From Aquisphaera giovannonii (lineage in GTDB: Bacteria > Planctomycetota > Planctomycetia > Isosphaerales > Isosphaeraceae), in assembly GCF_008087625.1 (NCBI RefSeq), contig NZ_CP042997.1, positions 868,001 to 932,000 of the forward strand: a DNA stretch of 64,000 bases. Direction: 5' to 3'. The notes beneath the pieces are model-generated. The model searched no databases and was not told where the DNA came from. It was given only the letters and a program-made list of their open reading frames with translations. Shown in pieces: positions 7,052 through 63,960 of this stretch (its first letter is position 1; the number at the start of each line of letters is the position of its first letter). A program made the translations under genes and the position numbers.

Positions 7052-8574
7052 GGGGCGGAGTCCTTTCCGCGGCAACTCGAAGGGACGCGATCCCGTCACG
7101 TCCGTGGATGATCGATCGAGGGCGGATGTGCGGGGGAGTCTAGGCGAGCCCCGCCCCCTCGTCAACGCGAACCCGGACGCCCGTGACCCGATCCGGACGA
7201 CCATGTGTGCGCTCCCCCGGAGGCGTTCCCCGGCCAACTCCCCACACCCGGCCCGGCGGCCCCGCCTCGGCGTGGGTCTGGTTGTCGGCACGACCTGTTT
7301 CGAAGGCGTCGCCGCAAGTTCCCATGAGGGAACGCCTTGACCGCGGTTTTCGAACGGCTTCGCCACCCCCACGCCGCAGCCTTTTCGCCCTTCGCTCGCG
7401 TGCCGGAACCCGGTCAGGCCCCGGGCCGGAATGACCTCGGCGGATACCTCATCTGGGCGGCTGGGGCAGGGCGCAGCGATGCCCAGGACCCCCGGACTCG
7501 GCACCGGGGCATGGCCGCGCCCTGCCCCAGCCACCCACGACCTTGCTCGCCGGACAACTCGATGGTCCTGTTCCTGCCCATCCGGTGGACGGGGCCGCAC
7601 GACATGCAACACCCGGCACGACGCGGGACCGCATTTCCTGCGTCGCGTGGGTCCACTCGTTGCGCGGGTTGTCGCGGCGTTCTCGACGCTTCTTGATGAT
7701 TCATTAGGACTTGCGGCCAGAAAAAAATGGGTTCGTCGCCGGCCCCGCGAACAAGAACCGCCGGCTCGCATGCCCCGCGCGGGCCGGCGGCGACCTGCTC
7801 GCCACACCAACGATCGAATTGCCAAAGAAGTCTCGCGCCTTTCGGTCGCCGGATTCCCGAGACACCCCCCGATACGCTCCACGCGACGGCGTCCCGAATT
7901 TCGGGGGCGGAAGGAAGAAGGATCGAGGCCCGCTTCCTTCGCCTTCAGCAATCGGCGATCCTCACCCGGACGAGCATGGCGGACCGCGTCCCCTCTATAA
8001 GGGACTAGCGCCATGTTTGCCCGTTTTCGCGGTGCGACCGGCGGATTTCTCGGATTTCGTAGGGATGGAACCGTGGCTCGCGGCGTGATCCGGCCGATCC
8101 GCTATCCTTGCCGCTTGCTTCGAGGCGACTCATCGGAGGACGCCGACGAGCTCCGGAGGACCTCGCGGGCACTCGACGCAGACGACCGGGATTCATCGCC
8201 TTCGAGCCGAGCGCGCGAAAGCGATCCGGGCCAAAGCCATCCGGGTCATCAAGCCATCCGGGTCAGGTCATGTTGTTGGTGCCCTTGACGGAAGGCCGGG
8301 TCAGAATTCTTGTTGTGAGTATGTCCAGACGACTGCGCATCCGGTATCCAATGGCGATCAACCGCGTCATGTGGCGCGGCGCGGCCGGTTGGCGATTGAC
8401 GTGGCAGGGCGGCGGGCCGGACCGTTTGGGAGGTGCTGGCCTTCGTCCGGATGAGCAACCAACGGCATCGGGTGGTCCGCACGCCGCGGCCCAACCTGGC
8501 CACCGGGATACGACACCTCTTCTCGACGCACGCGACCGGGCCCGGCCGGCGCGGCGTCTCTGCGCGGGGATCTC
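7052..8574. other. 1.5 kb spacer without a supportable gene
   Basis: Several short open frames cross this region on both strands, but none has a recognisable motif, a good ribosome binding site or planctomycete-like codon choice. GC is lower and more uneven than in the neighbours, especially from about 7,690 to 8,360. Visible structures are a small perfect hairpin GTTCCC-ATGA-GGGAAC (7318-7333), a 74-base palindrome (listed separately) and a direct repeat of AAGCCATCCGGGTCA near 8,231-8,265. It could hold a decayed gene or mobile element, but nothing identifies one. Confidence 0.5.
7459..7532. repeat. 74-base imperfect palindrome
   Basis: The arms GGCTGGGGCAGGGCGC (7459-7474) and GCGCCCTGCCCCAGCC (7517-7532) are perfect inverse complements of 16 bases. 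Inside, ATGCCC (7479-7484) pairs with GGGCAT (7507-7512), and CCG/CGG stretches allow a longer imperfect stem. It lies in a spacer and could be a REP-type element, a transposon remnant or a bidirectional terminator. It differs in sequence from the REP hairpins found elsewhere in the window. Confidence 0.6.
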
Positions 8575-14983: not shown

Positions 14984-15432
14984 GCCGGGGGCGGGCCCCC
15001 CGTCCCATGCCGGCCTCGCCCGCGACGGCTCGCCCCTCCGCCGGCCCCGGCGGGGCACCTCCCGACGGCCGTGGCGGTCCTGCGGCGTCGCCTTCGGCTC
15101 TGCCGCGGCCACCCGGAGGGCCGGCGACCCTCCCCGGCTGGTGCGGGCGAGATCCGGGTGGCCGTTGTGGAAGCGCAGCGACACCACGGGATCGCCGCGG
15201 CGAGGGGCCGGGCCAGGTTCACGGGCCGTGGCGGTCCCGCGGCATCGCCTTCGGCTCTGCCGCAGCCGCCCGCCGGGGCCCGCCGGCACCCGAGATCGCG
15301 CGAGCAAGGCATGGGCGGCCGCGGCGGGGCGCGGCGACGCCACGGGCGGTCGGGCCGTCGCCGGTCCGAGGGCCGTTCCGCCGGTCGAGGCGTCCCTGGA
15401 GGGCCCAAGAGCCGGGCGCAGGACCGGCCCGC
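14984..15432. repeat. Convergent spacer packed with four REP-like hairpins
   Basis: Between two convergent genes lie four copies of the roughly 43-base hairpin: plus orientation at 15073-15116, minus at 15154-15196, plus at 15230-15272 and a diverged minus copy at about 15313-15351. Plus copies carry GCGGC(A/G)-TC-GCC-TTC-GGC-TC-TGCCGC; the minus copies carry related hairpins with GCGCAGC cores. They form face-to-face pairs like bacterial interspersed mosaic elements. No coding sequence is supported here. Confidence 0.75.
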
Positions 15433-40614: not shown

Positions 40615-41320
40615 GGCGGTTCATTCCCTCCGTCGCGGTGTGTGAGGATCCGTCGATTCGACGACGAACATACGGGACGCGGCGGGGCGTTTCAACGCGG
40701 CGGAGGCGACAGGCGACGGCGCGGATTCGCTGCGACGTCGCAGTGATCCGCGGTCGATGCGTACGCTCCCGGCCGTCTCTCGGCGATGGCGATCCCGTGG
40801 TGCCGCTCCGCTCCACGACGGCCACCCGGCGCGGGCGTGAGCCGGGCGGGCGGGCTTCTCCCCCCGGGTGGCCGTGGCAGGGCCGAAAGTCTGACGCGAC
40901 GCGGTAGTGTGCCGCGAATTCGGGCGGCCGTCTTCGCCACGGAGGGCGCCGGCCGGTTCATGGAGAGGGCCGTCCCGGTTCTCCCCCTTACCAAGGGGGA
41001 GTTAGAGGGGGTGGATGGCGCGGGCCGGGGGAATCGAATCCACCCCCCTGTATCCCCCCTTGGTAAGGGGGGAAGCGTGCGGGGCGGCGAAGACGGCCGT
41101 CCGAATTCGCGGCACACTACCGCGTCGCGTCACACCGAAGGCGATGCCACGGGATCGCCTCGTCTTGCGAGTCGGCCATCGAGCCCCTCGCCGGCTCGAT
41201 GGCCGTGGCGTCGCCGCGCTCGCACCACGGCCACCCGCGGCCTGTCCCGGCGCCATGGTGAAGGTCCGGGGCCGGAGCCCGGTCCCGGGGCCGCGGCGAG
41301 GAGACTCGCCGACCCGACGA
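40615..41320. repeat. Spacer with a REP pair, one copy split by an inserted element
   Basis: No gene is supported. A plus-oriented REP hairpin of the variant stem type lies at 40788-40829. A minus-oriented copy is split in two: 40864-40887 and 41135-41159, with a 247-base inverted-repeat element between them (listed separately). Further REP-like fragments occur up to about 41,250. The upstream promoter of the GH127 gene should lie in the first 150 bases; a short palindrome CGTCGATTCGACG near 40,650 is visible there. Confidence 0.7.
40888..41134. mobile_element. MITE-like inverted-repeat element inserted in a REP hairpin
   Basis: The element is a long imperfect palindrome. Terminal arms of 47 bases (40892-40938 and 41086-41132) begin TGACGCGACGCGGTAGTGTG and differ at one position. 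A second inner pair of arms contains CCCCTTACCAAGGGGG and CCCCCTTGGTAAGGGG. It has no coding capacity. The flanks carry CCGAA on both sides (40883-40887 and 41135-41139), consistent with a 5-base target duplication, and deleting the element restores a complete REP hairpin with a perfect outer stem (GTGGCA/TGCCAC). It is probably mobilised in trans by a transposase not in this window. Confidence 0.8.
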
Positions 41321-59639: not shown

Positions 59640-59842
59640 TCGGTGCGGGGGAAGCCGGCCTGCTCGCCGAGGGCGGGCCAATCCGGCTCTCCCCCTCACG
59701 AAGGGGGAGTCGGGGGGGGTGGATGGCGCGGGCCGAGGCGAGCGAATCTACCCCCCCTGTATCCCCCCTTGGTAAGGGGAGAAGTGTGCGAGGTGGCGAA
59801 GGCGACCGTCCCGATCCGTGGCATGCAACGTCGTCGCGTGAC
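59640..59842. mobile_element. Degenerate copy of the 40.9 kb inverted-repeat element
   Basis: From about 59,690 to 59,840 the sequence follows the element at 40888-41134: CTCCCCCTCACGAAGGGGGA, then GGGGTGGATGGCGCGGGCCG, CCCCTGTATCCCCCCTTGGT, GAAGTGTGCGAGG and the end GTCGTCGCGTGACAC. The right arm is clear but the left terminal arm (about 59,640-59,690) is barely recognisable, so the copy is old. It fills the gap between the sigma factor start and the stop of the CBM9/beta-lactamase gene, and thus lies in the promoter region of the sigma/kinase operon. Confidence 0.7.
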
Positions 59843-59848
59843 ACCCGC

Positions 59849-63784: not shown

Positions 63785-63960
63785 TGATTTTCTTTTGTAG
63801 GGTGCGTCAAGCGCAGCGCGGACGCACCGGACCGCCGTCGCATCAGAGATGAGCCACGTCGAGGTGACCCCTGGCCACAAATAGGACGAGCCGGGGCCGT
63901 GTGCGAAGCCGATTCGGTGCGTCCGCGCCGCGCTTGACGCACCCACAAAAGATTGTGATA
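63785..63960. repeat. Inverted-repeat element with GGGTGCGTC arms
   Basis: The left arm at 63785-63830 (TTTTGTAGGGTGCGTCAAGC onward) and the right arm at 63916-63960 (ending TTGACGCACCCACAAAAGAT) are inverse complements over about 45 bases with a few mismatches. Each arm is itself a hairpin, GGTGCGTC opposed to GACGCACC. A gap of 85 bases without coding separates them. Similar GTGCGTC hairpin repeats occur in other bacterial spacers. The rest of the last 260 bases holds no gene. Confidence 0.65.

Follow-up and report, generated by a model that had tools for sequence, protein, structure and literature searches.

The hairpin repeats found in this stretch of the Aquisphaera giovannonii chromosome are, with high confidence, a family of REP elements arranged in BIME-like pairs and arrays and spread by a RAYT (TnpAREP, a Y1 HUH nuclease) that the genome itself encodes. 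The GTGG head, the compensatory stems, the alternating orientation, the intergenic placement, the high copy number and the RAYT genes flanked by the hairpin are read from the DNA itself; the movement of the hairpins is what we infer.

The Repeat Unit and Its Copies in the Window

The window is the whole 64-kb stretch analyzed, positions 868001-932000 of contig C1 (NZ_CP042997.1), in a genome of 10.53 Mb on 3 contigs. The repeat unit is 40-42 nt long and reads, on the strand that carries the GA dinucleotides (the GA strand), GGGTGGCY-[6 nt]-GA-[7-9 nt]-GA-[6 nt]-GGGAYCGCC. At least ten copies in four clusters had been announced in the original prediction, and all four clusters are real and lie where it placed them, with 11 copies of the reported type and one split copy. 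An extra pair is present at 7.45-7.54 kb. The copies, with their scores, are as follows (window positions):

7455-7493, plus strand, REP copy absent from the original prediction, 36.6 bits
7500-7536, minus strand, partner of 7455-7493, also absent from the original prediction, 31.6 bits
15073-15114, minus strand, REP copy, long-inner-stem subtype (GCGGCA..CGCCGC), 56.8 bits
15156-15196, plus strand, REP copy, short-inner-stem subtype (GTTGTG..CACCAC), 60.6 bits
15230-15271, minus strand, REP copy, long subtype (GCGGCA..TGCCGC), 60.3 bits
15313-15352, plus strand, degenerate REP copy, short subtype, 38.1 bits
24284-24325, minus strand, REP copy, long subtype, 62.1 bits
24366-24405, plus strand, REP copy, short subtype with diverged tail, 46.3 bits
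40788-40827, minus strand, REP copy, short subtype, 54 bits
40866-41159, plus strand, REP copy with its loop split by a MITE-like element, halves 17.6 and 23.9 bits
41196-41236, minus strand, diverged REP copy, 49.3 bits
54716-54757, minus strand, REP copy, long subtype, 61.9 bits
54877-54917, plus strand, REP copy, short subtype, 64.4 bits
54957-54998, minus strand, REP copy, long subtype, 63.8 bits

The MITE-like element inside the split copy (window 40872-41152) has inverted-repeat arms of 67 nt (40872-40938 and 41086-41152) plus an inner repeat, and GAA (or CCGAA) is repeated at both of its junctions with the REP loop. A related copy lies at window 59675-59845, outside any REP. REPs are already described as insertion targets in PMC1525189.

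Copy Number and Orientation across the Genome

A pattern search in which only the head and tail were fixed, while stem, GA and loop were left free, gave 135 matches in the genome versus 6 for the reversed control. A hairpin is formed by 97 of 100 places taken from these 135 matches; the three non-hairpins were left out of the covariation counts (n = 97). A covariance-model search of the genome, as proposed in the original prediction, returned at least 150 matches, those listed all with E <0.005, although these E-values are rough. In sixty evenly spaced 20-kb tiles (1.2 Mb), 37 matches at E ≤0.01 were found, or about 320 when extrapolated to the whole chromosome. The family thus runs to hundreds of copies, mostly in alternating orientation.

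Among the 150 matches listed, 56 of 60 neighbors no more than 400 bp apart face in opposite directions (30 plus-minus, 26 minus-plus, 3 plus-plus and 1 minus-minus), as the original prediction had described for the window. Their spacing, start to start, is mostly 64-90 nt. The matches listed hence display the alternating units and regular spacing of a BIME or REPIN.

Cognate RAYT Genes

A search of the genome with Pfam Y1_Tnp identified six Y1 genes, none of them cognate to this hairpin; two of the six sit among other REP families. The cognate RAYTs were instead found via a gene-sized gap between hairpin copies, followed by a protein search. The gap, at C1:4.8905-4.8912 Mb, holds a RAYT at C1:4890779-4891165(+) with four hairpin copies upstream and three downstream, representing both major subtypes. 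Its frame is broken just before the HUH motif (locus L027). An intact RAYT, 67% identical to the frameshifted one over the searched stretch, is located at C1:135862-136242(-), with a hairpin on both sides, here of the minor subtype GCGGTA/TACCGC (1 of the 97 examined copies). Both genes are thus flanked by inverted REPs, as in a REPtron (loci L018/L028 and L007/L027), and a RAYT bordered by the same hairpin was the decisive check put forward in the original prediction.

The intact RAYT matches the NCBIfam family NF047646 (REP_Tyr_transpos) at 80.4 bits, for a cut-off of 80, and stays below the Pfam Y1_Tnp cut-off (E 0.1). The profile of the RAYT family matches E. coli TnpAREP (4er8) with an E-value of 2.7e-9. 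The motifs PEH.H, FWQ and Y.H.NP are conserved in the RAYT alignment, so that the HUH motif, the catalytic tyrosine and the WQ are all present. The EHxH variant of the HUH motif was rejected as a clade marker, as the aligned 4er8 sequence is also PEHMH-like.

The broken frame in the RAYT that sits amid the two major subtypes raises the question of whether the hairpins are inert remnants of a REP family once spread by this gene and now decaying. Some copies are indeed degenerate, and 32 of the 97 examined stems contain at least one position that is not a Watson-Crick pair. Nevertheless, exact subtype sequences recur far apart, the identical GCGGCA/TGCCGC stem being shared by 30 of the 97 examined copies at distant sites, and an intact paralogous RAYT is present. 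We consider such decay possible, though less likely than not. It overlaps with our preferred reading, a REP family spread by a RAYT, because the timing and not the identity of the elements is at issue. Because the RAYT beside the dominant subtypes is broken, hairpins that still move would have to rely on the intact RAYT in trans; otherwise their mobility would have stopped.

In the family set, three RAYTs (L027, L037 and L039) are broken at nearly one place just before the HUH motif, in one case by a frameshift, in another by TGA and in the third by TAG at the tryptophan codon; L057 has the same TAG. Recoding at this shared spot is not claimed, as other broken RAYT relatives break elsewhere. 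On the downstream side of the intact RAYT (L018, 698-785), three tandem hairpins follow one another with a 23-nt period, which looks like growth by slippage.

The genome also carries other repeats of this kind. A separate, GTAG-headed REP family has 80 exact-pattern copies, often paired about 110-130 nt apart. It occurs at window 63800-63944 and at C1:510896-511065, and flanks a yafM-like RAYT at C1:511168. A third REP family (GTGGGAGCCGGCTCC...) is found at 280 places at ≤3 mismatches, and another RAYT (L006, C1:5139000-5140600) is bordered on either side by its arrays. Two further Y1 genes (L001 and L002, C1:8353100-8355200) lie 1.5 kb apart; between them, GACAGAGAAAGGGTG-like units follow each other in tandem, and 175-nt repeats are also present.

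Placement between Genes

With a home-made, crude gene model based on codon usage (82.5% coding), 47 of 50 copies fall between genes (34 of the 37 from the tiles and all 13 from the window). The high copy number and extragenic location known from REPs are therefore both found here. The same crude model agrees that two of the four spacers named in the original prediction lie between convergent genes. In the wider set of 21 REP-bearing spacers, 8 are convergent, 7 are tandem and 6 are divergent; the corresponding figures for all 540 predicted spacers no shorter than 100 nt are 76, 316 and 148. REP spacers are hence richer in the convergent type (8/21 vs. 76/540, Fisher p 0.005).

This enrichment would be expected if the hairpins were transcription terminators or stabilizers of mRNA 3' ends, kept for the host, with an incidental link to the transposase. 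Avoidance of promoters, however, would enrich convergent spacers too, and 13 of the 21 REP spacers are tandem or divergent. Moreover, the hairpin is followed by the 3' tail GGGAYCGCC and not by a run of T, and the copies alternate as pairs or arrays (among the matches listed) and flank RAYT genes. A host function of this sort is, in our judgment, quite improbable.

Among the matches listed, two deserts without this REP extend over C1 1.75-3.89 Mb and 6.54-8.04 Mb (2.15 and 1.50 Mb), a size reached by 0 of 5000 uniform placements. The GTAG-headed family is also sparse in both: of its 80 copies, the first desert has 3 and the second 1.

Covariation of the Stem

The two sides of the outer stem change together, as had been predicted from the window. 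At stem position 2, the 97 copies have CG in 40, TA in 36, GC in 11, TG in 9 and CA in 1. CG (73) and TA (11) prevail at position 5, as do GC (46) and AT (44) at position 6. Over all copies, 546 of 582 cells are Watson-Crick pairs. When the 3' arms were re-dealt inside the inner-loop classes, 486 cells paired on average and 504 at most, and none of 5000 shuffles reached 546. The result is the same for the 66 distinct sequences alone, in which 364 of 396 cells pair against a shuffle maximum of 334, and in slid registers just 123-198 of the 582 cells pair. Position-2 CG, TA and GC are each present in both loop classes. The stem cells are not independent events, because the copies share descent.

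The unit is thus, as is typical of REPs (20-40 nt), an imperfect palindrome kept palindromic by compensatory changes. From this covariation, we infer, as did the original prediction, that the folded form is selected or required for spread. The covariation fits selection by the host as well as the transposase's own need for a substrate, and the counts do not separate the two.

Shape of the Folded Strand

The GTGG head precedes a C, a Y and the stem, and the C and Y face GG on the 3' side. The tetranucleotide at the foot of the hairpin is hence GTGG, of the GT[AG]G type of REPs. The GA...GA said in the original prediction to be constant is nearly so: the 3' GA is found in 96 of 97 copies, and the 5' GA in 79, with GG in its place in 17. 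By automatic parse, 88 of 97 copies have a GNA loop of three bases, with all four bases occurring at N.

In single-stranded DNA, unusual stability is a property of tandem GA/GA mismatches and of GNA triloops. With DNA energy parameters, 96 of 97 copies fold more stably as the GA strand than as its complement. The conserved GA/GA mismatch and the GNA triloop favor one strand as the folded substrate. The folding energies of single copies improve only modestly on those of shuffles (z -1.9 to -0.1 for the GA strand), and this weak signal was set aside as proof of structure.

Sister Species, Family and Phylum

In a survey of 45 genomes of the family, 141 matches of the unit were counted in the A. 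giovannonii genome and 47 in a sister species; of the other 43 genomes, one has a single match and 42 have none. A RAYT at E ≤1e-15 is encoded in 12 of the 45 genomes, and the unit is present only where close RAYT copies are present. One RAYT of the sister species has the same kind of hairpin in its flanks. The other is 72% identical to the intact A. giovannonii RAYT but is flanked by a different hairpin, GTGGTG-GAA-CACCAC, of which the sister species has 93 copies and A. giovannonii 0.

That the copy number tracks the presence of the RAYT also makes it very improbable that the repeats are genome-wide copies of a structured non-coding RNA or of a riboswitch-like element: although the stem covaries and the internal GA/GA is conserved, a search of the 64-kb window against Rfam returned no family at gathering score, and the copies have no fixed orientation to genes, both strands being used within one spacer.

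At the level of the phylum, 80 of 454 RAYT loci from public genomes were retained, nearly all of Planctomycetota. The top 7-mer of their flanks is GGGTGGC, found near the gene at 59 of 80 loci and far from it at 9. The near and far windows are unequal in length for tag counts, and densities were compared instead: GGGTGSC lies within 450 nt of the RAYT at 69 of the 80 loci (245 tags), at 8.8 times the far density, and was not found within this distance at the other 11. When hairpins were sought without an assumed head, GTGG was in front at 20 loci near and 4 far, and GTGC at 16 near and 1 far. The nearest tags are inverted at 35 of the 58 relative loci carrying tags on both sides. The fourth base of the head switches between G and C about 15-16 times on the RAYT tree; this base was hence rejected as a clade marker.

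A Putative Route of Spread

For a REP family spread by its RAYT, the following course can be proposed. Once the DNA is single-stranded, for instance as the lagging-strand template, the GA strand would fold into an outer stem, the GA/GA mismatch, an inner stem and the GNA triloop. The RAYT would recognize the head and the irregularity in mid-stem, and would cut and join near the hairpin, by which units or pairs could be copied to new sites. The compensatory changes could then have arisen because only copies still able to fold act as substrates.

A broader reading is put forward more tentatively, with chances close to even but short of it. The elements would belong to a mainly planctomycetal RAYT lineage that uses GGGTG[G/C] and not GTAG as guide head, with a fourth guide base that has switched between G and C many times. 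In A. giovannonii, the hairpin would be built on non-canonical G-A geometry, with GA/GA in mid-stem and a GNA triloop; this geometry would leave only one DNA strand a good substrate and replace the bulge of E. coli. If this is true, the cleavage dinucleotides should switch with the head: CC/CA for GTGG and GC/GA for GTGC. This prediction is based on experiments with REPMb, described in PMC8266576, in which cleavage took place at CC once GTAG had been changed to GTGG, with CA still cut.

Comparison with Known Systems

The E. coli REP/BIME system and its RAYT TnpAREP (yafM) are alike in that several hairpin subtypes alternate between genes, an array flanks the RAYT, the head is of the GT[AG]G type and the stem is irregular in the middle. 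In Aquisphaera, however, the head is GTGG, the mid-stem has GA/GA and not AA/GC, and the loop is GNA. The AA/GC mismatch of the E. coli REP is reported as required (PMC8266576); the GA/GA is plausibly its counterpart, because the E. coli REP needs a mismatch in mid-stem. The proteins differ as well: the Aquisphaera RAYT reads WQ.GGGYDRN where 4er8 reads WQPRFWEH.

The GTGG head is within the GT[AG]G rule published for REPs, as given in PMC6006769. The GT[AG]G REPs of gammaproteobacteria described by Nunvar et al. (2010, PMC2817692) resemble the present ones in the inverted REPs flanking the RAYT, the co-evolution of RAYT and REP, the abundance of cognate REPs tracking the RAYT and the point changes that keep palindromicity. 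That study reported suitable RAYTs only in gammaproteobacteria, whereas the host here is a planctomycete and its relatives also bear a GTGC head. Closer in host range are the GTAG- and CGTC-tagged repeats of PMC3733652, which are likewise tagged palindromes forming dimers. Planctomycetes, with R. baltica, are named there as carriers, and a GTGG variant in O. terrae and unpaired GA residues in elements of P. aeruginosa are reported. In its main-text passages, no member of the Isosphaeraceae is named, and neither the GNA loop nor the GTGC tag is described.

Our literature searches found no paper describing this Aquisphaera REP family. For annotation, the family accounts for several hundred repeats between genes of this genome, and it provides a clean REP-RAYT system in a phylum with RAYTs little described. 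The 72%-identical RAYTs of the two Aquisphaera species with their unlike hairpins, and the GTGG and GTGC relatives, are natural pairs in which the joint change of transposase and hairpin specificity can be studied, and testable predictions are offered on guide-directed cleavage and strand choice. The class of system is already known, and the Aquisphaera family is a well-formed further example; new here are the host lineage, the GA/GA and GNA fold, and the GTGC heads of the relatives.
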